Part shown: positions 2,913-44,391 of the stretch, piece after piece
Numbering within the stretch: the first letter of the stretch is position 1
Layout: every line of letters begins with the position of its first letter
Assembly (NCBI GenBank): GCA_963921795.1
Contig: OY997642.1
Span: forward strand, 63,494,749 to 63,558,748
Length of the DNA: 64,000 nucleotides
DNA from: Nannobrachium achirus
Lineage: Eukaryota > Chordata > Actinopteri > Myctophiformes > Myctophidae
Direction: 5' to 3'
Position numbers and translations under genes: made by a program
Notes under the pieces: model-generated
The model's database searches: none
Seen by the model: only the letters and a program-made list of their open reading frames with translations
What the model was told of the DNA's origin: nothing

Positions 2913-3824
2913 TTAAAGGCATATTCAGGACTTGTTTTTCATTCAAATAAAAATCCAGTCTGCACATTTCCCATTAGTTTTCGTCGCTATAAGGTGCGCT
3001 GACCATATAAGGACTTCCACCCTGTCCCCTGTTACGAGCATAGCTCGCTCGAGTTTTTCCCGTTCGCCACAAAGATCTCCACCAATCAGGATAGAGAATG
3101 ACTGGTGCGCGTTCTGGCTGGCTTGAGATGCACGTTCACACAGCCCTCAGCTTGGGAGGCGCGCGTTCACATTACATTGAATGTTTACAAGATGGCGGAG
3201 AAACAGGACAAGATTCCCATCCCAGCTCTCCCACTTGCACCAAGAGAAGCCAAAAGATTAAAAACTATTGAAGAGAAGAAAGCTGCTACTGAACAGAAGA
3301 AGTTGGCAAGGAAAGAGAAGAAAAAAGCGTTAGATAAAACCAGAATTTGCCTCGGAACGGCTATGGAACGGTGGAACCAGCTAAAAGAAACAAAAGGACT
3401 GAAGACCCACAAGGATGTAGCTTTGCTTCTACTCGATCAGTAAGTAATGTTATACTTTGCAGTTGGCTTTTTCTCCTCAAATATTTACCGAGGGTACTCC
3501 GAGGCTATTTGAAGCAGCAATAAAACGCTTGTGTGTTTTTTTAATTGTCTTTAGTTACGAGAAAGATCCATACCAATCCACGCCATCAAAGCCTAGTCGA
3601 AAAAGATCCCCTCCCCCATCGTCACTCTCTAGCATCTCAAAGAGCGAGAAAGAGTAAGTAACATTCTGCATTCAACAAGTGTTTCTCTTTCAGTTCGTGT
3701 TATTATTCAGCTAAATGGAATGGTTATTTTACAGGGATGATGATGATGATGATGATGACATAGCGTTAGAGGAAGAACCCCCATTGACTGAAGCTGCAGC
3801 TCGTCTCACGAGAATAAGGTTTGT

Positions 3825-4220
3825 GTTTTCGCTACTGGATGCATTGGCTTTATACATATCAAGGGGGTGGAGATCCGCGGTGGTCCCCGTAGCATCGAGG
3901 ACCCCCGCGACCGACCCCCACATCCCAAACGAGTGTTTGTTATATCTTATTTAGCCGAGTTGTTTTCGCTACTGGATGCATTGGCTTTATAAATATCAAG
4001 GGGGCGGAGATCCGCGGTGGTCCGCGTAGCATCGCCCGCGACGGACCCCCACATCCCAAACGAGTGCTTGTATATCTTATTTAGCCGAGTTGTTTTCGCT
4101 ACTGGATGCATTGGCTTTATAAATATCAAGGGGGCGGAGAACCGCGGTGGTCCCCGTAGCATCGCCCGCGACGGACCCCCACATCCCAAACGAGTGCTTG
4201 TATATCTTATTTAGTTATTA
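3825..4220. repeat. About 130-bp tandem repeat in a transposase intron
   Basis: Three units begin with GTTTTCGCTACTGGATGCAT at 3825, 3962 and 4092. They contain a CpG-rich stretch around GATCCGCGGTGGTCC. The first unit overlaps the donor side of intron 3. Confidence 0.85.
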
Positions 4221-4967
4221 GGTATAGTTTCCGATTTCATTACTACCTACTGCAATCATACGTTTTGTTTTTGTCTGTGGTGTTATGTTATTCTTCAAGT
4301 TTGTGGTATGAGCGAATCCTGCATGCAAATCCCAAACTATTACAATAACAAAGAAGAGTGTTGGCTCACTCAGTGTTGTCTCAAATTGCTGGGTCGTTAG
4401 ACCAAGGAGTGAAACATGTCACATTGTTGTAAATAGGGCCATTCTGTGTAAATTGCTCTGTCCATTCCTTCCATGATGTATAAATTGTAGGCCTACTCAT
4501 TATCTCCATCTACTTGTAAGCAAACTCTAAAAATAATTGTGGCTGTCTGCATTTTATTTTTTGAAGGGAGGACAACAACCCTGATGCCCAGCCAATGGAG
4601 CTACAAGTTCCCTTACAGGAACCTGAGATTCATGTGTTAGAGGCTAGGTATGTGCTAATCTTTTTCTTCCTACTTGATGCATTGAGTTGCTGACCAAGAC
4701 TATATTTTGAATGTATGTGTATTGTTTCAGATTACATTGTTATCTACAGCACACTTGCTATTTTTAATTAATATAATTTGTTTTACCGTAGCCTAATACA
4801 ACACTGTTTATCTTTCTAGTAGATGGTATGAGAGTATCTTTTTGACCCAAAAATAATAAGAAAACATTGGTAATAACAGATTAGTTTTGAGCGCTTATAC
4901 ATAGGAGTGAAACGTCTCACCTAATTGGTGCTCTGGTCATTTTGTGTAAATTGCTCTCTCTCTCGCG

Positions 4968-4968
4968 C

Positions 4969-5019
<51 letters not shown>

Positions 5020-5043
5020 TTCAATATGCACACACACACACAC
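4968..5043. repeat. (TGTC)n then (CA)n microsatellite
   Basis: An uninterrupted CTGT run from about 4971 to 5018 is followed shortly by (AC)n at 5029-5043. It lies in an intron of the transposase gene. Confidence 0.95.
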
Positions 5044-8000
5044 ATTAAAATGTATATATTTTTTTATTAACGCAGCATGTCCTCATTGGATTTAAACGTG
5101 CCAATTGACGCAGATGAGTTCAACAGCCCACATAACGCTACGTAAGTTGACCACATAAATCCTGACCAAATTAATCGTTACCAAAAACATCACATTTTTG
5201 CATTTTTAAAAGTAGTAACAACTCAACAATTTTTATTCTGTAGAATTGAGATTGAAGATGATCCATCCTGGCAGCTTGGGCTGGATGATATACCTTTGTC
5301 ATCGTCTGAGGAAGATCTGACAATAGAATTTGACAGCGATGATTCTGACAGTGATGAAGAATATTATCCCCGCTTATCTTTTCGGTAGGTTATTATGACA
5401 TAGTTGCTGAATTTTATGCGATACCCAACCTTTGTGTGTGATTATTTCTGAATTTGACACAACTTATTCTTGCAGTGCTGGCGGAGCTCTAAAAGTGAGC
5501 ATTGAACATCTTCCAATCCTCAGTGTTGGTGACTCTGTACATGACGCGGGATCTGACGAAGCAGAACCCATTCCAGAAGATTCAGAACATGATGTCGATG
5601 CTGGGGACAACATTCTGCAAGATCCAGCCTTCATCGCTTACCACATTATCTCTACTTCAACTAGTGGAATATATCGTTCTACCGGTGGATGTGTGTAAAC
5701 AGTGTCAGAGCACAAAACCTTTTCATGTTCGTGTTAGATCGAGGGGGACAGCAGCAATCATTGAATGGGTGCGTGTTTGTTTGTTATATTCTTTTATGTG
5801 TTGCTGAAAGTCTTCCTTTTGCAAACAATGTACGCCACTGAATCTAATTATCCTGTTTTTTTTTGTTTTTTTTCAGGTATGCACAAAGGGATCCAAAACA
5901 TATTGTGTGGAAGTGGTCATCCCAGCCGTATGTGAAATCAGGAATGCTGGTTGGAGATTTCCTTCTGTCCTGCAATCTCCTTCTCTCTGGAAACAACTAC
6001 AGAAAACTCGCTCTTCTCTTCAAATTTATGGTAAATTGTGCATTTATATATCGCCTTTATCCAAGGTGTTTTACATAGATTGGGTGCATTAGATTCACCC
6101 ATTCTCTCTCTCACAAGCGCGCGCGCGCACACACTGATGGCGGAGGAAACCATGCAAGGCACCAACCTGCTCTGTGTTCTCTAAACCTCTACTCTATCTC
6201 TGACAGAACATGCGCATGGTGAACCACGACACGTTCCATAAAATCCAAGACCAATGCTGTGTTGACACTATCACTGACTTCTGGACCAGGAAGAGGAGTG
6301 CCATCATCACCAGACTACAAGCCAAAGACAAAGTTGTGGTTCTTGGTAAGTGTCCCAATACAGCACAATACACAGTCCAAATTAAACATTTATTATAGGC
6401 TGATGTCTTTTCTAAAATTGTGTCTTGTGAGAAGGCTAACCTTTCTCCTTCCCACCTTTATGTTTATGCTTACGCCAGGTGATGGTCGGATGGACAGTCC
6501 CGGTTACTGTGCACAGTACTGCTCTTACTCTGCCATGGATAACGACACCAAAGAAATCATCAATGTCGTCAACATTGACAAGAGAGAGACCAGCAGGAAC
6601 TCTGTGATCATGGAGAGGGAGGCATTCATCAAAACATTTGGCCAGCTCCATGCAGAACTGAACCTCTCAGAGTTCTGCACAGATGCACACACACAAATTG
6701 GAGCTCTGTTTAGTAAGTCATTTTGTATTGATTGGTTACATTTCATACTAGTGTTTTATGTATTAGAGCATTATATCACATTCCTTCTTCATTTACCAAA
6801 ATGTACCTATGTATGCGTTATGACCATGACAAAGAAATCCACAATTTAATGATGCCAACATTGTTTTTCAGCGAAGGGAAAGTACAAAGACAGTGGAGTA
6901 ATTCACTCTTTTGACATCTGGCACGGCGCCAAAAACCTGGGCAAAAAGATAGCTGCTGTAAGTGAAAGGTTTGAGTGCAAATTTAAAGTGTGATCAGTGT
7001 GCATAATGTGTAATAATAATAATGTAAAAGCAATTTAATTAATTTTGCTCCCTGTCCTAGCTGTCATTTTGGCCTGTTTAGTGTTTTAGTGAAGTGTAAA
7101 ATAGAATTACATTTGCTTCCATTTTATTTTCAGGCTTCCCAGCTAAAGGACTGCTCAATCCTCGCTGACTGGAACAAGGACATTTGCACTCACTTTTGGT
7201 ACTGCTGTGAAAAGGCTGATGACTATGACACTTTCTTCGTAAGTATTTCAAAACAAATACATATCATGTTGCCTTCAATGAATCACTTTGTCTGGAAAAC
7301 ACACAAGCGAGTTGGGAGAGTAAACTCATCTTGTGCTGTGGTGACCACCTATCCAAGTATCACTTGACGCTCAGAGATGTCAATTTGTAGTTACAACGGA
7401 TCAACAATGTGTTTTGAGCTTTTAGATCTGCTCTTTTGCCCGTGTACAGAAAGGATGATCCAACTCGGGTCTAAAGGGTTTATGATGTCAAATAAATTAA
7501 CTTTTTTTTTTTTAACTGTATTTTGTGTAGGATAAGTGGACTGGGGTCTTACACCACGTGGTGAATGATCACACATGGGTCTTCAACAACGGTGCCTGTG
7601 ACCACGTGATGCCCTTGCCAGCAGAAGAGAGAGACAAGCCTTGGATGGACAGAACCTCAACAGCTCATCAGAAACTGTCTGAGATCGTTTTAAACGAACG
7701 CTGGCTCAAGTCTGTCCACCATTTCCTGACCTTTAGGTTAGTAAATTTGTTTTCTCTCTGGTTTCACAAAAATCCTTTACCAAATGACCATTTAGAAATG
7801 CTAAATTTGTTGTATTTCGGGGTATAATAAGTGTGCAACTGCAATGCGTCTTTGTATTCAATGTTGGATTTACCTGTGCTCAATTAAAAAAAATGTATTC
7901 CTTGTGCGTGTCAATGTTTAGGTCAACTGCACAGCTCGAGAGCTATCATAACCATCTCTTAATGTATGCATCCAAACGCATATCGTTTTCTCCGCCTGTG

Positions 8001-8134
8001 TATGGAGCACGGATACTGCTGGCCGCATTAGACTACAATCATCATGTACACAGAGCAGCCAAACGAAAGGCAGATGGATCAGTAAGGTATGTTTTACATG
8101 AAGTTAGCTCATGCTTTAGCCAGGTATTCTATAT

Positions 8135-8637
8135 CAGGGGTTTTTAAAGTGGGTGACGGGGCACCCTGGGGTGCCGTGAGATAATTTGATAATATTTGGA
8201 ATTTATTTGGACACTTGAAAAAATATTTAAACTCCCAATTGAAGTACAAAGTTATTTTCAGTTAGTTTTAACCTACATGGCTATTATCTCAATGTAATCT
8301 AATCACTAAAATATCGTCACTGTCGGACATAAACCTTGTATCGCCAATTTTGAAATGTGTACTTTTGGTAAAGCAAAGCCCTGCTTCATCATACAAGACT
8401 GTCGCACATCATACAAAACAGACGATCTACAAGCACACAACGCCGCTTGTAGATAGTCTGTTTTCACTAGTTTAGTACATTTTAGAGATGATAAATACAA
8501 AACAAACGGTTTTGGACACGTGATGGTTTACACCCGACAAAATATAAGGTGTTGGGAGTGAAATTTATAATGTAGGGGTACCTCGGATTAAAAACATTTT
8601 TATGGGGTGCCCGGAGACAAAAGTTTGGGAACCCCTG
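8135..8637. mobile_element. hAT MITE, family A, in intron 14 of the transposase gene
   Basis: Ends CAGGGGTTTTTAAAGTG and TTTGGGAACCCCTG are imperfect inverted repeats. They are flanked by TTCTATAT (8127-8134) and TTATATAT (8638-8645), 8-bp duplications with one mismatch. No ORF. The centre holds the recurrent hairpin at about 8416-8464. Other family members lie at 11214, 35519 and 37955. Confidence 0.85.
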
Positions 8638-9484
8638 TTATATATATGTTTTGGAATGTAGGAAGTATTATATTACGTATATTAATTGAAATCACTGTTT
8701 CTCCATCTCTTATCAGCCATGGAAAAATGTACAGCAAGAAGTCCAAGGGCTATAAACTGGTGGTTCTGAAGGAGGACAAGGACTACAGCTATATTCCAGA
8801 ACTTCAAAACGCTCTCCTGCAGCGACGGTTGACCATGGAGGCACTGGGTAAAAAAAGCATCAAGAGGCCTGACGATGCTCGGCGTCTAGGAAATCTGCCT
8901 GGTGTACCATCCCAAACGATTGAGAAGATGTTGCAAGATCGAGCGAGCAGAGGGAGATGTGAGTACTACAGGCTATATGCTATGTATTTATTTATGATGG
9001 TTCATGGGCTAGGAATTGGCTCAAGGGAGGGATACCAGGGCACAGCATTTGGTATTATGCACTCAACAGTTTGTCTTGGATCGTCATTGATTCGGTGTCT
9101 ATTGAACTATTGTTATACTGTGCCTGACTAGTGATCAACTTCCATTAATGACTGATATCTTTTGTGTATCTTTTGTGTTTTCACAGGACAAATGAGAGAT
9201 AGACCAGTGACTTCCATCTCTTCTTCCTGCCCCCGGGTCTCAGTCATCATCCTCAGCAGGATTTGCAGGGACGTTGATCCAGCTCAAAGGGCTCAGCTTC
9301 AACTAAAGACGGATCCATTTGTTGCAGAGTGCGGGTCACAGTACAATGTGTAGTTCTGTCTTTTGTGAATTAAACATTTTAATTCTTACAAATGTGTCCT
9401 TCTTGTTGCATGAAATGAAACACACTGAGAATGTTGCTACATAATTTACTTTAAAAGGTGGATCATATATGCAGTTGTGACATT

Positions 9485-11012
9485 GATTGCTGCCTTTTCT
9501 GGGCAAGGTCCTAGAAAAAATTATCTTTCATCAATTGGATGTATTTCTGCAGAACAATAAGGTGCACAACAAATTCCAATCCGGCTTCAGGAAAGGACAC
9601 AGCACAGAAACTGCACTTTTAAAAGTAATTAATGATCTTAGGGTGTCTGCTGATAACAAAAATGTATCCGTTCTCCTACTGCTGGATCAAACGGCGGCTT
9701 TTGACACAATTGACCATACAATTCTAATACAACGTCTTGAACACTGGGTAGGGCTGTCAGGCACAGCTTTGTCCTGGTTTTACTCCTACATAACAGGCAG
9801 AAGCTACTTTGTTAATCTAGCTGACTTTGAGTCAAACAAACACAACATCTGCTCTGGCATTCCACAGGGCTCAATTCTTGGTCCTTTATTATTCTCCCTC
9901 TATATACTGCCGCTGGGAGAACTTATTTCCGCTCACGGTGTGAATTTCCATTTCTATGCTGATGACACCCAGCTGTACCTTTCGGTAGCTCCGGACGACC
10001 CCTGTGCTCTAGACCCATTGCTGACGTGTGTGTCTAGCATAAAATGCTGGATGAGTGAGAACTTTCTCAAACTAAATGAGGACAAGACAGAAGTTCTCAT
10101 AATTGGTTCTACTGCGCAGAGAGAATCAATAATAAGTAGACTTGGTAACCTGTCTAAAGAAAGTAACACTTCTGTAAAGAACCTGGGAGTGATCATTGAC
10201 GCTGAATTGAATTTTAATACACACATTAATCATGTCACCAAGATTGCCTTCTTTCACCTTAGAAATATTGCGCGAATTAGAGCCTATCTAACATTGGACG
10301 ATGCAAAAAACGCTGATCCACGCTTTTGTTTTCTCTCGGCTTGATTACTGCAACACACTTCTCTCTGGTCTGCCAAAGAAAACAATTGACAGTTTGCAAC
10401 TTGTTCAAAATGCGGCAGCCAGAGTTTTAACTAAAGCTAAGATGAGAGAACATATTACTCCAGTCTTAGCGTCGCTACACTGGCTCCCGGTTGTTTTTAG
10501 GATTGATTTTAAAATTCTTTTACTTGTTTATAAAGCTCTAAATGGTCTGGCACCTTCGTACCTCTATGACTGCCTGCATAGATACGTTCCAAACCGCCCA
10601 CTCAGGTCTTCTAGTGCTGACCTACTCGATGTGCCTAAAATGAAATATAAAAAATATGGTGAAGCAGCTTTCTGCTTCTACGGACCGACAGTTTGGAATA
10701 AACTCCCACTACACCTAAGACAGGCAGCCTCTGTGGATAGCTTTAAAGCACAGCTCAAGACCTATTTCTTTACTCTTGCTTTTAGCTGAATTATTTTTTT
10801 TATCTCTTTGATGCTATTGACGTCCACACTGTTCTGAAATTGTTCTTCAATGTTTTATGTTTTTATTGTTCTGCTTTATTGTATTCATGTGTATTTTATT
10901 TTTTCTGTTAAGTAACTGTGCTTAATTTTCTGCTCTGTAAAGCACTTTGAGCTGCATTTCATGTCATGAAAGGTGCTATACAAATAAAGCTTTATTATTA
11001 TTATTATTATTA
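9485..11012 (+). mobile_element. 5'-truncated L2-clade LINE
   Basis: It begins abruptly within the reverse transcriptase domain. It ends in GGTGCTATACAAATAAAGC followed by (TTA)n to about 11012, the 3' end style of fish L2 (Maui-like) LINEs. It is inserted in the Kolobok-type element just downstream of the transposase gene. I could not find a clean target duplication. Confidence 0.85.
9487..10789 (+). pseudogene. L2 LINE reverse transcriptase, C-terminal part
   Basis: The reading frame runs from 9487 and carries RT signatures: GFRKGHSTETALL, AAFDTIDH, CSGIPQGSILGPLLF and the catalytic FYADDTQLY. The C-terminal region follows (SRLDYCNTLLSGLP, HWLPVVFRIDFKILLL, WNKLPLHLR), ending at 10789. It would reverse-transcribe LINE RNA at the target site. 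The two halves are in different frames that overlap at 10301-10344. A run of six A at about 10305-10310 explains the shift, one base too many or too few. The endonuclease domain is absent because of 5' truncation. Confidence 0.88.
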
Positions 11013-11213
11013 TTATATTGGTATAAAACCTTTGGAAACAAATTGCATCAATCATTCTATTTGGGCCAATAGCTTAAATGGTATTCAAAAAAAGGTCCAT
11101 ATTATGGATGACAGACTATTTATGGCACAATATGAGTCCAACTAGTATTTGTTTTCTTTGCAAGGACCCCCATAACTGAGTATACACAACTAGAAACAAT
11201 TGGACCTGCAAGT

Positions 11214-11723
11214 CAGGGGTTTTCAAAGTGGGTGACGGGGCACCCTGGGGTGCCGTGAGATTATTTGATAATATTTCGAATTTATTTTGACACTTGAAGA
11301 AAATATGATTTATTATAATTTTAAACTTGAAGGAAAAAGTTATTTTCAGTCAGTTCTAACCAAAATGGCTATTATCTCAACGTTTTCCTCGCAACATAAT
11401 CACTAAAATATCGTCACTGTCGGGCAGAAACCTTGTATCTCCTTGTATGTCTTTTTCCCTGCTTCATCAAACAAGACTGTCACATGAAACTAGTGAAAAC
11501 AGCAGATTACAAGCACACAACGGGCGTTGTGTGCTTGTAGATCGGCTTTTTTCAATACTTTAGTACATTTTATAGATGACAACGGTTTGGGACATACAAG
11601 GTTTCTACCAGACAACGACGATAGGCTATAAATGTAAGGTGCTGGGAGTGAAAATTATAATGTAGGGGTGCCTCGGATTAAAAACATTTATGGGGTGCCC
11701 TGAGACAAGTTTTGGGAACCCCT
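11214..11723. mobile_element. hAT MITE, family A, second copy
   Basis: It starts CAGGGGTTTTCAAAGTGGG and ends TTTTGGGAACCCCT, colinear with the copy at 8135-8637. The central hairpin is at about 11494-11551. Flanking duplication is not clear. 11013-11213 holds no gene. Confidence 0.8.
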
Positions 11724-11841
11724 ATGAATTACAGGACCTGTAATGGGCTTTGAGTGCTTTAATTTTGGTAATACTAGTCTTCTGAGTTGGTTGGTTTCTA
11801 GCTGTACACTCCAGAGTTACCTGTTTGTTGTGGTCATTTAC

Positions 11842-12010
11842 CAGCTTAGTGACCTTGTGGTTAGAGTGTCCGCCCTGAGACTGGGATGTCAGGGTTCAGT
11901 TCCCTGGCCGGGTCATACCAAAGACTAAAAATATAAAGAATCATGCTACAGAAACAGGAGATAGTTTCCGGCCCTATGGGCCTCATGGATCATCAAGGCT
12001 ACTTACTTAG
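11842..12010 (+). mobile_element. tRNA-derived SINE
   Basis: TGTGGTTAGAGTGTCCGCCC (A-box region) and GGGTTCAGTTCCC (B-box region) are followed by CGGGTCATACCAAAGACTA. That order is typical of abundant fish SINEs. The 3' limit is uncertain. Confidence 0.7.
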
Positions 12011-12182
12011 GGTCATTCAAGGCTGTATGTCTATCAGGTCATGGAATATCTTTTCATTTTGTAAATCCATGGCAAAAGTAATTTGAGAAATGAATCACAC
12101 AGATCTCGCAAACCAAATATTTACTTTAAAAAAGGGAGACATGGAGGGTACAGCATTGTGCATTCGGAGCTGTCACATATCA

Positions 12183-12236
<54 letters not shown>

Positions 12237-12600
12237 AGAAAGCTATTTAAAACAAAAAGGCAATAGCCCAAAGTGTTTGAAGGTAGAACCGTTAGTGCAC
12301 AAATTGTCATTTTAAAAGTGAAACAGAATTTCCTGACACTGAAATTATTTACATGAAAAGGAATATAATATATACATTTGGAGGGGGTACAGCATTGAGC
12401 AATCAGCTAGGTCACATATATACACAGGTATAAAGCTTCTTCTTGCAACAAATACTATAGCAGCATGTTTGCCCTAATGAATAATCTTACAGTATAATTT
12501 TAAAATGTGGTTGAAGGTAGCAGCTCTGTTTATGTGAATTAAGAATATAGGTCACTCAATGGTTTGTAGTCCTTACAGTCAGGGGTCAACCAAATGGACC
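12011..12600. repeat. Direct repeats and (AC)n tract inside the Kolobok-type element
   Basis: Two related segments, near 12140-12186 and 12380-12430, share GGTACAGCATTG and GTCACATAT; (AC)n occupies 12187-12234. No gene. Confidence 0.7.
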
Positions 12601-12620
12601 CGTAAGGGTGAACGTTTGCC

Positions 12621-14287
12621 CTACACCCGACTGGGGAGCCAGCCAACATAGTGTGCGTTACTATCAGGAAATCGGCTCCTTATGCGAATTACGCAACATG
12701 AGAAAACTACAACTCTGTTGCCAGCTCCCAGCACGCCATACTGCCACATGGCAAACTGTCTGTAAGCAGCATGGCGATACTGTCTTGCGGTCATTATGGT
12801 TGGCAGCTGCAACCTGAGCACGGACATCATTCCATATCCCAACAGCAAAGGTCAAAACGCCGTCTTCGAGGATGTACACATCCATGTGCGGCTCCCTGGA
12901 AGTGCACCGTTCTGGACGTTGACCACAGCAGAGGTTCTCAACATCTGTGTTCATCTCCTGACAGTTCCCACAGACACACCAAGTTGGTTGTTCTGTTGCT
13001 GGTGGTGGTAGATTCTCCATTAGTTCCTGAAAGGACGATTAGAAAGAATTAGGAGGATATACTCACACTTGATAAACGACATAAAGACAAATGATAGTAA
13101 TTATTTTTGGAGGCTATTTTGTAAGTGGTCTAAGAAGATCTCAAAATTCAAGAGTACATCTTCAGAGTAAACTTCTTGGGTATTGGTAGCTCAATTGCAC
13201 TTAGTAAGATGAATAATAATTTAAAAAAAAAGTAACTTGAATAAAAAAGAATCTGCAATAATAGTCAAAATAAAATCAATACATACTCTATCTCTGTCCA
13301 CCCTTGCTTGGTGCATTTGTTGGAGTTCTTGCACACGCTGGTGATCTGGAAGAGCTATTCCCCTCCCCCTGCGTCCACGACGTCTAGGTGCCCTGGGTGC
13401 TCCTTGGCCCTGTCCTCTCTGAGTCTGTCTCTGTCCAGCTGCCCTCCCCCCAGCTGGGGGGGGAATCCAATCTTCATCTCCAAGTGATCTGTGAAATAAA
13501 CAAAGCGAAAATTTGTTAAAATAAACATGTCTGCTCTACCTATTATACTGCCTTGTTACTCATGTATTGATAAAAATGATGATGAATGGATGATAGATAG
13601 TTTGAGTATGGACGGCTGGGGTGGGTAGGTAGGTAGGTAGATAGATAGTTTGATGTGGACAAAGTCCACATCAAACTATCTACCTATCCATACATAATTC
13701 ATGTAACGTAAAAACAAAAAAAGAAACGGTCGTTACTGTGACGAGGACCCCTCTCTCACTCACAAACAGTTCAATTAAAAACGTGATGTACACAATAGCG
13801 TTTTCCAAAAAAAGCCAGTGAACCAATCAATAGTTTACTCAACAGCTCTGCGTTGGTGAACATATATGGTGTGGTTGTAGCAACATAGTTTGGCCAACAT
13901 CGCTAAATGCTTCAGTTTACAGTACATAATACACATGGCTACAGAACCACCTCCGTAACTTTTATTGTTATTGAATAGTTTTACTGCTTGCCATATGAAT
14001 GGGGGAAGTGGTCTGAGGTCGCCAAATAATTCCACTCATAATAAGTGGCAGTTGTTGTGCGTGTGGTATAAAAACAAGTTTGAGAAGCCCAGTTCTCAGG
14101 TAGAGATAAAAACAGAAGACCAGACAGACTCGAGAGGCAAAAAACAAAATAGCTTCAGCATTAGCAGACAAACGTTGTGAGAGCATACTATAGGAACGTC
14201 GTAGTATGGGGGTTATGTTGCGTTGCATTGGTAACAAAAGTTTACATTGCATTGTACTTACTGATTTGAAGACGAACCAGATGCCAT
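12621..14287 (-). pseudogene. P2X7 C-terminal (ballast)-domain-like protein, three exons
   Basis: Minus-strand exons are 14287-14262 (start MASGSSSN), 13488-13287 (Arg/Gln/Gly/Pro-rich, RRRGRRGRG) and 13026-12621, all with GT/AG borders. The last exon encodes WCVCGNCQEM, then ENLCCGQRPERC. In the next frame it gives AYRQFAMWQYGVLGAGNR, SCCVIRIRSRFPD and a final GWLP before TAG at 12621-12623. The order WCxCGxC, CC, AYRxxxxW, SCC..IRxxFP matches the cytoplasmic C-terminus of vertebrate P2X7 receptors, a zinc-cysteine domain that binds guanine nucleotides. No P2X channel part is present. One base change near 12785 is needed to join the two halves, giving about 210 residues. Lying convergently with the transposase gene and inside the same inverted ends, it is best read as an accessory gene of the transposon. 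Its role there is unknown. Confidence 0.75.
13630..13690. repeat. Perfect short palindrome in an intron
   Basis: GTAGATAGATAGTTTGATGTGGAC is followed after 3 bases by a close reverse complement. It could extrude as a hairpin. It lies in the second intron region upstream of exon 2 of the P2X7-like gene. Confidence 0.85.
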
Positions 14288-14524
14288 GGTGTAGTTATAA
14301 AGTTCTTCAGTAATTTGCCGTTGTAGCTACTAACTCGCTGTGTAGTATTGTTGTTGTCGTTCCGCAGTTGTGTTTATAAGGAAACAGCTGTAGTGTCTAG
14401 TGCGCGCTCCCGTTTGAGCGTACACTTCTACGCTTGGAGCATGTGGAGGCAACCCCCACAGCCCCCGCAAGCGCCATCTGCTGGAGAGGAGCCACTTTTT
14501 GAATCATCCTGAATATGCCTTTAA

Positions 14525-14753
14525 AGGAGTAGTTCACCCCCAAAAATATTTGTTAGTTTTTTGTCGCAGTCAAATATTTTAGTAAATTTACCTTACTTGA
14601 TTCCGCGTTTCCCGGAATCAATTCCCCATCAGGAATCAATATGGGTAAATGTATTGTAATGAGTTTTTTGCTAAAAGATATTATTGAACTCAAGTCTCCA
14701 TGACGTGAGTAATCAATAGAAAAAAAAGTCATTTTGGGGGTGAACTTACTCCT
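14525..14753. mobile_element. TTAA-type MITE, AGGAG family
   Basis: Left end AGGAGTAGTTCACCCCCAAA follows TTAA at 14521-14524. The right end TTTGGGGGTGAACTTACTCC is its near complement, but the right TTAA is lost. The left TTAA is shared with the Kolobok-type element. A relative sits at 57932. Confidence 0.75.
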
Positions 14754-14791
14754 CCATTCAGAACGGGTACACATTATAGTGTAAAATAGTG

Positions 14792-14842: not shown

Positions 14843-15055
14843 ATAAATCGTGAACATTTGAATTTTAACCCGATTCTATAAGTGTCTTTTGAATCCTTCT
14901 AAGGTTTTTTTTTTTTTTTTTTTTTTTTAACCTATGTTTCTATGTCAGCAATCTGGCCAGCCATCGTCAAAGAAAAGGTCCTTTTCACTTAAAGGAGCCA
15001 TCCAGACCAAAACACATATAGGGTTAAATCTATCTTTTATCATACCCTGTAGCAA

Positions 15056-15445
15056 CTCATAATGTAATAACGGCTCATAATGTAATAAGGGCTCATAATG
15101 TAATAAAAAAAAATGTAATAAAAACTCATAATGTAATAATCAGCTCATAATGTAATAAAAAAACTAGTGCATAACGTAATAACAGATTTTTCAATAATGT
15201 AATAATGTAATAATGTGTTACATTAAGAACCTCCACATAGGAGGCTCATAATGTAATAAAACTTCATAATGTAATATTTTATTTTTTATTACGTTATGAG
15301 CTGATTATTACATTATGAGCTTTTATTACATTTTAATTATTACATAATGAGCTAGTTTTTTATTACATTATGAGCTGATTATTACATTATGAGTTTTTAT
15401 TACATTTTTCTATTACATTATGAGCTGTTATTACATTATTGGTTA
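15056..15445. repeat. ATAATGTAATAA array, left
   Basis: Many copies of CTCATAATGTAATAA in plus orientation run to about 15280, then in inverted orientation (TTATTACATTATGAG) to 15445. The array is itself a hairpin. Confidence 0.95.
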
Positions 15446-16030
15446 TGGGTAACACACCCTGCCAACTTTGTTGATGAAGAATTGAGAAACTAGCTGCTAA
15501 GCATGCAGCAAATGAATACATATAGGGATCATTTAAAGGGAATACACCATGAATTTTCATTTTTCCAATTTTTATGTATTTCTTTTGTGTCCCACCAGCA
15601 GGTTATATCCTCACAAAGTCCTATTTCTGACCATTGTGTCTTTCTCAGTTTATGGGCAGATCTATGTAAGCAGGTTTCAGAACAGGCTGTCTGATTTTAG
15701 GTCCGATTGTGTGCTGAGTGGGGGTTGGGGAGGGGTGGGCAAGCCTGAGAAGGAGGCAGGAGGACCTGGGAGAGGGTTGGGGAGGGGTGGGCAGGCCTGC
15801 TGAGCAGGAGGTGGGGACTGGGGAGGGGTGTGGGGCCAAAACTGGCTCAATAGCGCAGTCTTCCCACTCAGGACAAGGTGGTACTGCAGCTGAAAATGCT
15901 CTGAAAGCCAGGCAGAAATGACAGGGGCTCTGTATTCAGGAGTGGTAATTTAGCCTTTTTTTTTTTTTTTTTTAGGACACCAACAATGTTATATTATTTT
16001 TAAATTATTACATTATTTTTAAATGCATGG
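15446..16030. other. Foldback arm with G-rich, quadruplex-prone block
   Basis: The arm sequence is interrupted by a G-rich block at about 15718-15836. It holds three clusters of runs such as GGGGGTTGGGGAGGGGTGGG (15720-15739) and similar at 15774-15791 and 15811-15835. A poly(T) tract lies at about 15957-15974. No gene. Confidence 0.7.
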
Positions 16031-16924: not shown

Positions 16925-17490
16925 AGCAACCAATAATGTAATAACGGCTCATATGTAATAAGAGCTCATAATGTAATAAGAAATGTAATAAAAACTCATA
17001 ATGTAATAATCAGCTCATAATGTAATAAAAAACGAGCTCATAATGTAATAATTAAAATGTAATAAAAGCTCATAATGTAATAATGAGCTCATAATGTAAT
17101 AAAAATACATTATTACATTATGAAGTTTTATTACATTATGTGCCTCCTATGTGGAGGTTCTTTATGTAACACATTATTACATTATTACATTATTGAAAAA
17201 TCTGTTATTACGTTATGCGCTCGTTTTTTTATTACATTATGAGCTGATTATTACATTATGAGTTTTTATTACATTTTCTTTATTACATTATGAGCCCTTA
17301 TTACATTATGAGCCGTTATTACATTATGAGTTGCTATTTATTACATTATTGAAAAATCTGTTATTACGTTATGCGCTCGTTTTTTTATTACATTATGAGC
17401 TGATTATTACATTATGAGTTTTTATTACATTTTCTTTATTACATTATGAGCCCTTATTACATTATGAGCCGTTATTACATTATGAGTTGC
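16925..17490. repeat. ATAATGTAATAA array, right
   Basis: The same CTCATAATGTAATAA motif runs forward to about 17105 and then inverted to 17490. A segment of about 125 bp (TTACATTATTGAAAAATCTG onward) is directly duplicated near 17185 and 17342. Confidence 0.95.
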
Positions 17491-25571: not shown

Positions 25572-25806
25572 TATGAGATGTGAAATGTACACTAGGACAA
25601 ATATAAAACATCCACAGCTCATCAGCTTCAGGCCTAGAATCAAGCAAAGCCAAGAATAACAACAAGCACAGACAGAAATATAGTTGTACTGTCATTAGGC
25701 AGCCACTTTTATTTACAACAATGTACAAATCTTTCAGGACAAGGACCCCACTGTGAAGTTATTTACAAAAAAATAAAGTGCAGTAGCTACTACAGGACTA
25801 CTACGT

Positions 25807-27560
25807 TTTCAGGCCAAGGACCCCTTAGTTGAGAGAGAGATGAAGCAGGGACCCCCACAACCTTTTGCAGATGCCATATAGTTTCATTGTTTGACAGCAC
25901 AATCATCAGTGTATTTTGGATTCATGTCAATTTGTTTCCAGACATTTAACCACTTGAGCCGTCAATACTTTATAAACCTGACCTTTCACTCTGTGCTTAG
26001 TATGCTCTTTTTCCCTTGCCGAAAATAGCCGATCTACAAGCTCACAACGCCTCACAGTGCGAGGCGTTGTGAGCTTGTAGATCTGCTATTTTTGGCTAAA
26101 GTTCTCAGAATATGGACTCTAGGGAAATAGGGAAAAAGGTTTCTATCATTCAGTTTTGGAGGACCCCCTGTAGTAACTCTGAGGACCCCCTAGGGGTCCC
26201 GGACCCCCTGTTGAAGACCTCTGATCAAGGGTCAACGTTTTCAGGCTAAGGACCCCTTAGTTGAGAGAGAGATGAAACAGGGACCCCCACAACCTTTTGC
26301 AGATTCCATAGTTTCATTGTTTGACAGCACAATCATCAGTGCATTTTGGATTCATGTCAATTTGTGTTTTCAGACATTTAACCACTTGAGCCGTCAATAC
26401 TTTATAAACCTGACCTTTCACTCTGTGCTTATTATGCTCTTTTTCCCTTGCCGAAAATAGCCGATCTACAAGCTCACAACGCCTCACAGTGCGAGGCGTT
26501 GTGAGCTTGTAGATCTGCTATTTTTGGCTAAAGTTCTCAGAATATGGACTCTAGGGAAATAGGGAAAAAGGTTTCTATCATTCAGTTTTGGAGGACCCCC
26601 TGTAGTAACTCTGAGGACCCCCTAGGGGTCCCGGACCCCCTGTTGAAGACCTCTGATCAAGGGTCAACGTTTTCAGGCTAAGGACCCCTTAGTTGAGAGA
26701 GAGATGAAACAGGGACCCCCACAACCTTTTGCAGATTCCATAGTTTCATTGTTTGACAGCACAATCATCAGTGCATTTTGGATTCATGTCAATTTGTGTT
26801 TTCAGACATTTAACCACTTGAGCCGTCAATACTTTATAAACCTGACCTTTCACTCTGTGCTTAGAATGCTCTTTTTCCCTTGCCGAAAATAGCCGATCTA
26901 CAAGCTCACAACGCCTCACAGTGCGAGGCGTTGTGAGCTTGTAGATCTGCTATTTTTGGCTAAAGTTCTCAGAATATGGACTCTAGGGAAATAGGGAAAA
27001 AGGTTTCTATCATTCAGTTTTGGAGGACCCCCTGTAGTAACTCTGAGGACCCCCTAGGGGTCCCGGACCCCCTGTTGACGACCTCTGATCAAGGGTCAAC
27101 GTTTTCAGGCTAAGGACCCCTTAGTTGAGAGAGAGATGAAGCAGGGACCCCCACAACCTTTTGCAGATTCCATAGTTTGATTGTTTGACAGCACAATCAT
27201 CAGTGCATTTTGGATTCATGTCAATTTGTTTTCAGACATTTAACCACTTGAGCCATCAATACTTTATAAACCTGACCTTTCACTCTGTGCTTAGTATGCT
27301 TTTTCCCTTTCTACACTAGAGCCGGAAATAGCCGATCTACAAGCTCACAACGCCTCGCAGTGCGAGGCGTTGTGAGCTTGTAGATCGGCTATTTTTGCTA
27401 TTTTTCCCCCTATAAACCAACCCTCTTTGCCGTAAATAGCAGAGGCATTGTGAGCTTGCAGAGCTGCTATTTTTGGCTAAAGTTCCCAGAATATGGACAG
27501 TTCAAGTGCATGTCTCACAGAGATTTGGAGGACCCCTGTAGTAACTCTGAGGACAGGGTC
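25807..27560. repeat. Tandem array of hAT MITE family B, about four copies of 432 bp
   Basis: Units begin GTTTTCAGGC(C/T)AAGGACCCC at about 25807, 26239, 26671 and 27103. Each carries the recurrent hairpin (26022-26093, 26454-26525, 26886-26957, 27325-27397) and ends ACCCCCTGTTGAAGACC. They are near identical and head to tail without target duplications between them. They therefore spread by unequal exchange rather than transposition. The last unit is altered and merges into the 2.8-kb duplication. Confidence 0.9.
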
Positions 27561-30500
27561 CTTGTAGAATCAAACATGTTCATGTGAAGGACCCCCAAAA
27601 CGATATGTATTTGGCCATGGAACCCAATCTCAAACTGTGGTGTGTCATGTCTGTCTCCATCCGCAGTGTTTACTCCCAGTAGTTTTTTTTTGTATGGTAA
27701 ACAGCAAAACACTGCGGATGGAGGCCGACATGACACACCTTGCACCAGTAGCGCGACTCTGCCCGCATCTTTGGGGTGGCTTTACTCTTGTTGCATACCC
27801 TGCAGGGCCTGGTTGGTTTCTCTTTTTTTGCTCCTGGGGCTTTGGGGATGAACTCCAGGCCATGGCCATTTAGGTTGCAGCTCAGCCTGCTGCCGGGGTC
27901 CTCCCTTGGGGCCCTAACGTTGAAGCGGGGTGGGCCTTGATGGACGTCGCTTTCCCCCGCCTCGTCCTCTCCATCGGCGTCAGCCGCAGCCTCCTCTCCC
28001 TGGTCTCCCTCGACGTCAGCCGCCGCCTCCTCTCCCTGGTCTCCATCGACGTCAGCCGCCGCCTCCTCTCCCTGGTCTCCATCGACGTCCGGGACGGGGT
28101 TGTCTGGCAGGACGGGGGGCTGCCCATGGAACTCCCGCAGGTTGGTCCAACTGTCTACAATGGCGAGGACGTACTTCATCAGCGAAACTGGTTTCTGTGC
28201 CTTGCATCTGTAGAGGATGAAGCTGTTGAAGAGCGCAATCTGGAACAGGTAGAGGCAGTACTTGGTCGTCCACTTCATCGTCTTTCTCGTCATCAAATAA
28301 TATCCCACATTCTGATCCATCTGGTCCACCTATGAAGACATTATGGAGGACATAGCAGAACAATGTCAATATACAGTATGTGCTATTGTGTATCTGTCGC
28401 AAAACACATTTTTGGACACTGCTCCTACAGCTTTTGCCCTAAAATCACACAAAGTGGTACACACACAGTATGTCTAGAGTCAAGTCATCAACATGGATCT
28501 GTCCCCTTTAGCGCCACCATCAGGCCCATTTTTCAAACACATTTTTGGACACCGCTCCTACACATTCTGCACTAAAATCATGCAAAGCGGTCCACAGTAT
28601 CTCTAAAGTCATGTCACCAACCTGGATCTGTCCCATTTCCCATATTCCCTCCTGATTGGCTACCATTGCCTTCTTTGCCTTCTAAAATTTGTGTATGCAA
28701 CCTGACGGTCGCTTATCTCTCGATTAGGGAGTCTTACTGGTGTTTAAATATTGTATTTGTATAAATATATGTAATCGATTACTCACCCCCTTCATCCATT
28801 TATTGTATGCCAGAACACACTCAGGTTTGCTGATCTTCTCCTTGGTTCCGTCCTTGTCCTTGTCCTTGGGCCTTTCCTCCACAGTGGACATCACATCCCG
28901 GTGGATGGTGGACACGACCTTTACCAGTCTCTTGTCCCTCCAGACAATGACCATGGCCTTGCCATTGTGCAGCATCATGTGCTCTCCGGGTTTCAGGCCG
29001 CGCACGGTCAGTTTGGCGGTCTCTGTTGGTTCCCCCCGCTTCTTGCGCAGTGTGCCGCATGTATGGGTGTTGAGCTCCAGGAGGCGGGCAGACAGAGACA
29101 AATGATTGTAATAATTGTCCATGTATAAATGATGGCCACGCCCCTTTAGGTCTCTGAGGAGGAACATCACCGTTTCGTCAAGTTTGGATTTCGTCCCGAT
29201 GTACGGCTTCATAGCATAGCAGTAACCGGTACGGGAGTCTGCCAGGATGTAGGATTTTATGCCATATTTGATGGGCTTCATGGGGTTGTACACCTTGAAA
29301 TTCAGGGCGCCCCGCCACATCAGCGTGCCCTCGTCAATTGAAATGTTTTGGTCGGGGTAGAACATCATCTTGAACCTATATAAGAGGTACTCCAGGACTG
29401 GCCTCACCCTCCAGATTCTGTCCACCTTGTCATCACCACCCTCGTTGTAGTGGAGGAACCGGGAGATCAGCTGGAATCTGTTCCTTGACATGGTCCTTGG
29501 GAAGTGGGGGGTTTGGATGACTTCCGTTGTGGACCAGTACATCCACCACTGGGGAAGTTTGAGGATACCAGTCAGGAACCACAGGCCAAGGTAGTTTTTC
29601 AACTCCCATCGGCTGACTGGCTTCCAGCTCCAGACCCTGGAACTTGGAGCGTCCTCTCTGCTAACCTGTAGTGACGATATAAACATTTCATGTCACGATC
29701 AGTGATCAAAGAAATTACCATAAACAATATCGCAATAATCAAAATATCCCCAACATCCATTATCCTGGGGTGGAACATTTTCCAAAAAAAAAACAAAGTG
29801 TGTGTGTGCGCGTGCAGTGAATTTGAATAAAGCCCCCACTAAGATAGTTAGTTTGAATAGTTTGAATAGTCAATTCAATGCAGCAAGCTCACAGCGCGGC
29901 ACCGAGTGCCACAAGCTATGTGATACAGTATGAAAGATGCTGCATTTTGACAAAGATGAATGCTGCCATTTCTCCCAAAATACCTTTTTAGAATCAGGTC
30001 AAACATATTCAAAGACTAGAGACAAAGTGTGCCATAACGGATGTAGCCCTAATGAGATCATTAGGCCTACATCCTATGACCTTTCACTCTGTGCTTAGTA
30101 TGCTTTTTCCCTTTCTACACTAGAGCCGGAAATAGCCGATCTACAAGCTCACAACGCCTCGCAGTGCGAGGCGTTGTGAGCTTGTAGATCGGCTATTTTT
30201 GCTATTTTTCCCCCTATAAACCAACCCTCTTTGCCGTAAATAGCAGAGGCATTGTGAGCTTGCAGAGCTGCTATTTTTGGCTAAAGTTCCCAGAATATGG
30301 ACAGTTCAAGTGCATGTCTCACAGAGATTTGGAGGACCCCTGTAGTAACTCTGAGGACAGGGTCCTTGTAGAATCAAACATGTTCATGTGAAGGACCCCC
30401 AAAACTCTATGTATTTGGCCATGGAACCCAATCTCAAACTGTGGTGTGTCATGTCTGTCTCCATCCGCAGTGTTTACTCCCAGTAGTTTTTTTTTGTATG

Positions 30501-32880
30501 GTAAACAGCAAAACACTGCGGATGGAGGCCGACATGACACACCTTGCACCAGTAGCGCGACTCTGCCCGCATCTTTGGGGTGGCTTTACTCTTGTTGCAT
30601 ACCCTGCAGGGCCTGGTTGGTTTCTCTTTTTTTGCTCCTGGGGCTTTGGGGATGAACTCCAGGCCATGGCCATTTAGGTTGCAGCTCAGCCTGCTGCCGG
30701 GGTCCTCCCTTGGGGCCCTAACGTTGAAGCGGGGTGGGCCTTGATGGACGTCGCTTTCCCCCGCCTCGTCCTCTCCATCGGCGTCAGCCGCAGCCTCCTC
30801 TCCCTGGTCTCCCTCGACGTCAGCCGCCGCCTCCTCTCCCTGGTCTCCATCGACGTCAGCCGCCGCCTCCTCTCCCTGGTCTCCATCGACGTCCGGGACG
30901 GGGTTGTCTGGCAGGACGGGGGGCTGCCCATGGAACTCCCGCAGGTTGGTCCAACTGTCTACAATGGCGAGGACGTACTTCATCAGCGAAACTGGTTTCT
31001 GTGCCTTGCATCTGTAGAGGATGAAGCTGTTGAAGAGCGCAATCTGGAACAGGTAGAGGCAGTACTTGGTCGTCCACTTCATCGTCTTTCTCGTCATCAA
31101 ATAATATCCCACATTCTGATCCATCTGGTCCACCTATGAAGACATTATGGAGGACATAGCAGAACAATGTCAATATACAGTATGTGCTATTGTGTATCTG
31201 TCGCAAAACACATTTTTGGACACTGCTCCTACAGCTTTTGCCCTAAAATCACACAAAGTGGTACACACACAGTATGTCTAGAGTCAAGTCATCAACATGG
31301 ATCTGTCCCCTTTAGCGCCACCATCAGGCCCATTTTTCAAACACATTTTTGGACACCGCTCCTACACATTCTGCACTAAAATCATGCAAAGCGGTCCACA
31401 GTATCTCTAAAGTCATGTCACCAACCTGGATCTGTCCCATTTCCCATATTCCCTCCTGATTGGCTACCATTGCCTTCTTTGCCTTCTAAAATTTGTGTAT
31501 GCAACCTGACGGTCGCTTATCTCTCGATTAGGGAGTCTTACTGGTGTTTAAATATTGTATTTGTATAAATATATGTAATCGATTACTCACCCCCTTCATC
31601 CATTTATTGTATGCCAGAACACTCAGGTTTGCTGATCTTCTCCTTGGTTCCGTCCTTGTCCTTGTCCTTGGGCCTTTCCTCCACAGTGGACATCACATCC
31701 CGGTGGATGGTGGACACGACCTTTACCAGTCTCTTGTCCCTCCAGACAATGACCATGGCCTTGCCATTGTGCAGCATCATGTGCTCTCCGGGTTTCAGGC
31801 CGCGCACGGTCAGTTTGGCGGTCTCTGTTGGTTCCCCCCGCTTCTTGCGCAGTGTGCCGCATGTATGGGTGTTGAGCTCCAGGAGGCGGGCAGACAGAGA
31901 CAAATGATTGTAATAATTGTCCATGTATAAATGATGGCCACGCCCCTTTAGGTCTCTGAGGAGGAACATCACCGTTTCGTCAAGTTTGGATTTCGTCCCG
32001 ATGTACGGCTTCATAGCATAGCAGTAACCGGTACGGGAGTCTGCCAGGATGTAGGATTTTATGCCATATTTGATGGGCTTCATGGGGTTGTACACCTTGA
32101 AATTCAGGGCGCCCCGCCACATCAGCGTGCCCTCGTCAATTGAAATGTTTTGGTCGGGGTAGAACATCATCTTGAACCTATATAAGAGGTACTCCAGGAC
32201 TGGCCTCACCCTCCAGATTCTGTCCACCTTGTCATCACCACCCTCGTTGTAGTGGAGGAACCGGGAGATCAGCTGGAATCTGTTCCTTGACATGGTCCTT
32301 GGGAAGTGGGGGGTTTGGATGACTTCCGTTGTGGACCAGTACATCCACCACTGGGGAAGTTTGAGGATACCAGTCAGGAACCACAGGCCAAGGTAGTTTT
32401 TCAACTCCCATCGGCTGACTGGCTTCCAGCTCCAGACCCTGGAACTTGGAGCGTCCTCTCTGCTAACCTGTAGTGACGATATAAACATTTCATGTCACGA
32501 TCAGTGATCAAAGAAATTACCATAAACAATATCGCAATAATCAAAATATCCCCAACATCCATTATCCTGGGGTGGAACATTTTCCAAAAAAAAAACAAAG
32601 TGTGTGTGTGCGCGTGCAGTGAATTTGAATAAAGCCCCCACTAAGATAGTTAGTTTGAATAGTTTGAATAGTCAATTCAATGCAGCAAGCTCACAGCGCG
32701 GCACCGAGTGCCACAAGCTTTGTGATACAGTATGAAAGATGCTGCATTTTGACAAAGATGAATGCTGCCATTTCTCCCAAAATACCTTTTTAGAATCAGG
32801 TCAAACATATTCAAAGACTAGAGACAAAGTGTGCCATAACGGATGTAGCCCTAATGAGATCATTAGGCCTACATCCTATG
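27275..32880. repeat. 2.8-kb tandem duplication inside the piggyBac element
   Basis: 27275-30078 and 30079-32880 are direct copies offset by 2802-2804 bp. I noticed only a handful of differences: CGATATG/CTCTATG near 27597 and 30401, GCTATG/GCTTTG near 29917 and 32719, and a 2-bp deletion. The junction ATCCTATG|ACCTTTCAC starts inside the fourth copy of the tandem MITE. Very recent, or an assembly artefact. Confidence 0.9.
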
Positions 32881-42198: not shown

Positions 42199-44391
42199 CT
42201 GGGAAATCTTGGTCACATGGTTTCTGGTTGTCCTAGAAACCCGTGTATGCATCGCGGAGGGGTGGATCTTTGTCACAACACAGTTCAGAGAGTGCTCTAT
42301 TAGATTATATAATAAAACATATATCACGAGTCTTCTCGGGATCGGCACTGCGGACGTCAAAAAAACTTTCACGAGTCTTCTTGGGATAGGCACTAAATGA
42401 GTTAAATGTGGATAATGTACCCACGCTCACTAAAAACGAAGAAAACAGAGAGGTTAAAATACATTGGGGTAAACTATCTAATGAAGCTGTCCTCAAATAT
42501 TGCTCTAACTCGAATGAATTATTGTTTAATGTAAATTTGCCTATGAATGCCATTTGTTGCACCAATGTGAACTGTGAAGATTCTTCACATGGAGAAAGTT
42601 TATGTTGTGTGTATAATAATATAGTGAGAGCAATTCAGGAGGATAGCATGTCTTTATTCACCCGCCCTAGAAAGGCCAGGAACATCAAGCCTGGGTGGAA
42701 TAAATGGGTGGCTTGCCATCACGTAGAGGCCAATGAGGCCCATAAGGCCTGGGTAATAGTTGGTAGGCCCAGACAGGGACCTGTCCTTGAACATAAAAAA
42801 CAAACAAATGCCAAGTATAAATATGCTTTACGATACATAAGCAAGCAGGAGCAGGCACTGAGTGCTCACTCTATGGCTGACAATCTGCTTAATAATGATG
42901 TCACAAATTTTTGGAAAGATGTAAAGTCTCTTAATAGGGCAAAAGCAGCTCTCCCATGTAATATAGAGGGGGTAACAGATCCGGTTGGCATCGCTGACCT
43001 ATGGAGACAGCATTATGAGGCTCTGTTTAATAGTGTTAAAGGGGAGCCTTTCCATGTAGGCATAATTGAAGAAGAAAATATTGTTTTTAATATTCATGAG
43101 GTTTTTAAAGTCATAGAGCAACTTGCTGACAGAAAAGCCAGTGGTCTGGATAATATCACAGCTGAACACTTAAAGTTAGCTGGCCCCAGGTTGGCAGTGT
43201 TGCTGTCTCTCTGTTTCTCTGGGATGTTGACTCACGGTACTCTACCTGACTCCATGCTGAGTGTAGTTCTGGTCCCTGTAATAAAAGACAAGGCTGGGAA
43301 TGTAGGAAGTAAAGATAACTACAGACCCATAGCTCTAGCTAGTATACTGTCCAAAGTTTTGGAAAAACTGCTCTTGGACAGATTAAGTGTATATATAACT
43401 ACGACTGACAATCAGTTTGGCTGTAAGCCTAAGCATAGTACGGACTTATGTATTTATGCTCTGAAAGAAGCAGTGGAGACCTATAGAAGGCAGGGCTCTA
43501 CTATGCTTGTGGGATTTATTGATGCGTCCAGAGCTTTTGATTGTATCCATCATAATAAGCTTTTTAATAAGCTCAAGCTTAGGGGTGTACCTAGCAGCTT
43601 AATACGCATTCTAGTTTATTGGTATTCCAACCAGAAAATGCAAGTAAAATGGGGAAGCACCTTATCCACCCCCTTTCAGGTGGGTAATGGGGTCAGACAG
43701 GGGGGGATTTTAAGCCCCGCCCTTTTTAATTTATATATGGACGACCTGTCCAAACAGCTGGGAGGGTGCAGCACAGGTTGTATGATTGGAGAAACCCTTT
43801 TAAATCATTTCATGTATGCTGATGACCTAACTATACTCTCCCCTAGTAGCAGTGGGTTCCAACAGCTGCTTAATATCTGTACTAACTATGGTATCGACTT
43901 TGATATTAAGTATAATGCTAAGAAGAGCATGGTTCTGATCTGTAGAACAAAGGATGACCTGGAAATCAAGTTTCCTGCCTTTTATCTGTCTGGTCAAACA
44001 ATGTGTGTGTCAAAAAGTACAAAATATCTTGGGCACATTATTACAGACACCCTTGAGGATGATGAGGATATGTATAGACAGAGGAGAATGATCTATGTAC
44101 AAGCAAATATGTTGGTTCGTAAATGTCACCATTGTACTACTGATGTTAAGGTTAACCTGTTTAGAGCTTACTGCACCCAGAGATGGGCGAAAATACATTG
44201 AAAAGTATTTTGATACAAAATACAAATACTGGGTCAAAAAATGTATCAAAATACGAAATATAAATACAGGCCAGAGAAATGTATTTAAGATTCAAATACG
44301 TATTTTGTATTTTGAAAATACATAAATACTTTTTATAAAAATTGATGCAATGATTAGTACTTTTATAGATTGACTGCCAAGTATTAAATTA

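Follow-up and report, generated by a model that had tools for sequence, protein, structure and literature searches.

Our results for a 64,000-nucleotide stretch of the Nannobrachium achirus genome (contig OY997642.1, positions 63,494,749 to 63,558,748; hereafter the window) support a model whereby a minus-strand gene encoding the zinc ballast domain of the P2X7 receptor is the KolX gene of a Kol0-type Kolobok cut-and-paste DNA transposon, KolX would serve as a transposition cofactor, and P2X7 would have obtained its domain from KolX by gene fusion. We consider this model very probable. Its core, the link between KolX and the ballast domain together with the origin of P2X7, is already known because it was published by Kojima and Bao in 2022 (PMC9587614); the sections of that paper drawn on here name KolX, describe the ballast fold in KolX of the Kol0 group, derive P2X7 from a P2X4-like gene that fused with KolX, and regard nanor as a likely domesticated KolX. 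Added here are a genome-wide linkage count, the full element, a rooted placement of the domain, motifs in the KolX tail, a structure match confined to P2X7 and a hint from cartilaginous fish. The placement of a cartilaginous-fish protein next to P2X7 and AT-hook-like KolX tails were not found in our literature searches, and no paper treating Kolobok together with the AT-hook was found in the literature searched; a further paper, PMC9319628, contains the words P2X7 and Kolobok once each.

A ballast-domain gene inside a TTAA-bounded element

The gene lies on the minus strand at the coordinates of the original prediction and, as described there, encodes no channel; it starts with an ATG at 14287, ends with a stop at 12621 and has three exons. 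Exon 1 (14262..14287, MASGSSSN) is predicted from a start codon and a donor that can be read; the basic, Arg/Gly-rich exon 2 (13287..13488, PRRRGRRGRG) has readable splice signals and is homologous in four sibling copies (L016-L019), and exon 3 (12621..13026) carries the ballast domain. Pfam PF20478 (P2RX7_C) matches the open reading frames at 12621-12851 (E 1e-12) and 12664-13038 (E 2e-8). The P2X channel domain (PF00864) had no match among the six open reading frames scanned around the gene, and the combination of channel and ballast that marks a P2X7 receptor is absent from it. All seven zinc-site cysteines are invariant in the seven aligned rows, which come from four transposon families and the P2X7 gene of this genome and from two database proteins; among 24 database KolX proteins six of them are invariant and the seventh is kept in at least 90%. 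The predicted KolX model matches only P2X7 structures (PDB 6u9v, 9e3o and others), and by this predicted fold the element has the second, ballast-fold protein that characterizes Kol0. KolX resembles the P2X7 ballast in its seven cysteines, the AYRQ...W...SCC...R motif and the predicted fold. It differs from P2X7 in that it has no channel but a helical stretch at the N-terminus, which in many cases is also rich in Arg and Gly.

The surrounding Kolobok transposon spans 2917-14520 of the window (11,604 bp) and is far longer than the KolX gene. The TTAA-bounded ends that had been proposed for it are real, with target-site duplications read from the sequence at 2913-2916 and 14521-14524. Inside them lie 14-bp terminal inverted repeats, AGGCATATTCAGGA on the plus strand at 2917..2930, with TTAA on its outer side, and inverted AGGCATATTCAGGA on the minus strand at 14507..14520. 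A copy of family A (L009+L029) is likewise flanked by TTAA at both ends; for a copy of family D, a pattern search in L026+L037 did not locate the far end. Kolobok elements are characterized in PMC9587614, as far as its relevant sections go, by TTAA duplication, 5'-RR/YY-3' ends and a transposase with two D, DxxH and E. In the window copy TTAA is duplicated on both sides, the ends AG...CT conform to 5'-RR/YY-3', and the catalytic marks are read as DGRMDSPG, CTDAH, DIWH and LESYHN. A short stretch with inverted arms (AGTTCACCCCC...) at 14525-14757 adjoins the right TTAA.

Two genes face each other inside the element, a plus-strand DDE transposase and the minus-strand KolX. Seven transposase exons could be read, at 3192-3439 and within 6480-8957, with further exons between 3439 and 6480 unplaced. 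The first (3192..3439), an open frame with a basic N-terminus (MAEKQDK...), has homologous pieces in L009+L029, L018+L030 and other places in the genome. The others lie at 6480..6712 (first D, DGRMDSPG; second D, CTDAH), 6873..6958 (DxxH, DIWH), 7133..7240, 7531..7737, 7920..8084 (last catalytic E, LESYHN) and 8718..8957 (C-terminal exon). Among the families in which the respective exons were read, DxxH was found in three and the last E in four. The seven joined exon peptides matched no Pfam family above the cut-off, and the assignment to the Kolobok superfamily therefore rests on motifs and ends. A piggyBac element as host of the gene is ruled out by the ends and by a transposase without a DDE_Tnp_1_7-type match; the same scan did score a piggyBac-type open reading frame elsewhere in the window (DDE_Tnp_1_7, E 1.7e-58).

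What did not hold is the integrity of the domain copy between these ends. Its two halves are in different frames, with a break near 12785-12787, it is 96 bp short near 13010 compared with its siblings, and a plus-strand long interspersed nuclear element (LINE) fragment with a reverse transcriptase (about 9492..11013; RVT_1 E 1e-29) appears as a gap in the sibling alignments and is missing at that point from L017-L019. Because of this frame shift, deletion and insertion we regard the window copy as decayed. Siblings L016-L019 all keep an open frame across the exon that carries the domain, and the window copy is a decayed member of a family that has intact-looking members.

Compared by published description, the window element shares with Kol0 Kolobok (PMC9587614, relevant sections) the TTAA target, the 5'-RR/YY-3' ends, the DDE transposase with DxxH and the second, ballast-fold protein; it differs in belonging to a fish family and in the damage to its copy. 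It also shares a TTAA target and a ballast-like C-terminus with piggyBac families that, in the same sections, have a KolX-like C-terminal part. Those families reportedly lack most of the seven cysteines, whereas the window family keeps all seven and has RR/YY ends.

Linkage of KolX and transposase across the genome

The 1.66-Gb genome holds 50 PF20478 matches, which cluster to 48 places. A converging transposase lies within 15 kb at 38 of these, of the window type at 24 and of a second type at 14, and no place has a transposase in any other orientation; convergence was visible inside 16 of the 20 stretches first examined. Since the searches scored 98 of 286 and 150 of 186 candidates and left some unscored, the genome counts are lower bounds. 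Approached from the transposase, 24 of 31 window-type places have a ballast match nearby. A chance host copy trapped in a single element, which would have undone the original prediction, does not agree with linkage at 38 of 48 places, and the proposal that Kolobok-type elements carry the domain along, or gave rise to it, is supported by this linkage and by the Kolobok marks. Ballast matches without a nearby transposase occur at L036, G000:C5:38393022, C10:31008756, C22:27937817 and C3:56584733; such matches could be decayed copies or host genes.

A second Kolobok-like lineage (lineage II) combines a ballast gene with its own transposase type (L034 with L038 and L039; L040 with L041). Two of its copies, on two chromosomes, are 99% identical, and one copy shows motifs of the Kolobok kind (VTDRHPS, FDVWH, SSLEAFH). 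The two copies compared begin TTAA-AGG, with TTAA at the left end, and leave homology at the far end without a clear inverted end. In L031, L033 and L036 the lineage II ballast gene encodes the motif YMFEP in its N-terminal part.

Direction of transfer between KolX and P2X7

Trees that include true P2X7, as had been called for, were built from hand-picked rows (58 in tree 1, 45 in tree 2), mostly taken from 230 full-domain proteins and drawn from the best 120 of 741 protein matches; row P0094 was dropped from tree 1 because its domain was not full. In both trees the P2X7 domain forms a single clade that excludes this fish's transposon copies; in tree 1 it stands apart from each of the four families (approximately unbiased (AU) test, p 1e-51; groups named once the tree had been seen). 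In these trees P2X7 is not the source of this fish's transposon copies. A true P2X7 ballast exon does exist in the genome, as a separate locus (L001, contig C12), and the domain is clearly common to both, as would be expected if a transposon had captured the host exon in this fish and multiplied it as cargo. Set against the separate clade, and against the presence among the matches listed of domain proteins, annotated for the most part as P2X7-like or uncharacterized, from hemichordates, amphioxus, starfish and bivalves, that account is so improbable that we give it almost no weight; the tree and AU test rule out capture of this fish's own exon, for this fish only and not for an ancient capture.

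Rooted on lineage II, the 45-row tree nests the P2X7 domain among transposon-type proteins with moderate support; P2X7 and a shark protein fall inside KolX-type proteins of bivalves, a hemichordate and a starfish. This rooted tree points to the transposon as the source of the P2X7 domain. In the 58-row tree the closest relative of that domain is a free-standing protein of chimaera and bamboo shark (97/90), which hints that its nearest relative may be a free-standing cartilaginous-fish gene; the chimaera and shark sequences are 74% identical over 161 residues. An animal-wide description of the domain by Rump et al. 2020 (PMC7016195) does not use the stem 'transpos' in its main text; the relevant sections of that paper report that typical P2X7 was not found in cartilaginous fish, that free-standing domains occur in ray and elephant shark, and that nanor and nanor-like ZCD proteins, by description, share with KolX a free-standing ballast domain and a short N-terminus. 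There they are described as genes, whereas Kojima and Bao regard nanor as a likely domesticated KolX.

The shark and chimaera protein looks like a conserved host gene, and the domain might accordingly have been a host gene first, captured early by Kolobok and passed from the host gene to P2X7. The nesting of P2X7 and the shark protein inside KolX-type invertebrate proteins, with a transposon lineage as sole outgroup, argues against this order of events, which we judge quite unlikely. We tentatively entertain, while holding it more doubtful than not, a fuller version of transfer from transposon to receptor: in early jawed vertebrates KolX may have turned into a host gene standing on its own, which chimaera and shark retain and which in bony vertebrates was joined to a P2X4-like gene. 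Originally it would have acted as a cofactor of a DNA transposon, and P2X7 would have lost its Arg/Gly-rich, AT-hook-like tail for DNA binding. As for a viral source, a single peptide pattern scanned once against viral contigs matched 7 times, and none of these matches was confirmed as a relative.

A putative role for KolX in transposition

Thirty-eight of 123 KolX-type proteins have a full domain and at least 80 residues ahead of it. Of these N-termini, 12 contain RGRGR (shuffle mean 0.11), 7 contain [RK]GRP (0.57) and 22 contain RGR (7.0), motifs that we take to be AT-hook-like, and 28 of the 38 proteins carry net positive charge ahead of the domain. The 90 residues before the domain in P2X7 (105 of 108 proteins) contain RGR once and [RK]GRP never. 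Repeat-rich tails can exceed shuffles without function, because shuffles keep the letter make-up and not the repetitiveness.

We propose that KolX would be a nuclear, DNA-binding cofactor built on a zinc scaffold. DNA in the nucleus would be bound by the Arg/Gly-rich N-terminus, which in some cases is AT-hook-like, and the transposase or a second KolX by the zinc ballast domain; the protein might thereby help to pair the element ends or to guide the complex to its target. Fusion with a KolX gene, early in jawed vertebrate history, would have given P2X7 the zinc part and left the DNA-binding tail behind. The receptor is a drug target in inflammation. If its ballast domain originated in the machinery of transposition, the zinc and nucleotide sites could be studied in transposon relatives, and the origin of P2X7 becomes testable with fish elements and the cartilaginous-fish gene.

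Several observations weigh against this model. Ten of the 48 ballast places have no transposase (true P2X7 among them, and one near a short contig's end), and a nearby ballast match is missing at 7 of the 31 window-type transposase places and present at only 14 of 87 places matching the second-type query, many of the 87 being short, weak matches and some perhaps another element type (35 of 130 matching rows lie on contig C14); because of such transposase places, KolX may be dispensable. Runs of four K/R occur in 7 of the 38 N-termini, no more than shuffling can produce (mean 3.1, maximum 9), and the gene models behind some N-termini are doubtful, one being fused to an integrase. The ratio of nonsynonymous to synonymous substitution rates (dN/dS), taken over 16 pairs, gave omega values of 0.13 (19 synonymous, 11 nonsynonymous changes) and 0.14 (4 and 2), and in other pairs 0.50 (3 and 6) and, once, 0.25; it is weakly informative because changes are few, synonymous change is zero or saturated in several pairs, and dS across families is saturated. 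The inner forks that place P2X7 in KolX are only moderately supported, and the AU test rejects neither P2X7 (p 0.083) nor the shark protein (p 0.073) grouped with bony-fish KolX.

KolX might instead be a passenger that gives transposition no help, as would be allowed by the transposase places that lack nearby ballast (7 of 31 for the window type, 73 of 87 for the second type), or it might act on the host, in silencing or in nucleotide or zinc sensing, and not on DNA. The P2X7 domain binds guanine nucleotides, according to the relevant part of PMC7016195, and by alignment position the site appears partly kept in KolX (R546, mostly H547, R578). Convergence beside two diverged transposase types (24 and 14 places) and the Arg/Gly-rich N-termini suggest a kept role near DNA, and we consider the passenger or host-acting role unlikely.

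Neighbouring features in the window

Beyond the Kolobok element, two head-to-tail copies of a 2.8-kb unit with a piggyBac-type transposase lie at 27273-30078 and 30077-32880 and are 99.8% identical; the first has the DDE_Tnp_1_7 match mentioned above, and the frame of the second stops earlier. Next to this pair lies a tandem repeat (25803-27400) whose unit measures about 432 bp. Arrays of ATAATGTAATAA-like units lie at 15050-15450 and 16930-17000; at 15050-15450 the units occur in both orientations and make up long inverted repeats. Finally, a 603-residue open frame with a reverse transcriptase at 42390-44201 (RVT_1 E 8.9e-34) represents a second retroelement.
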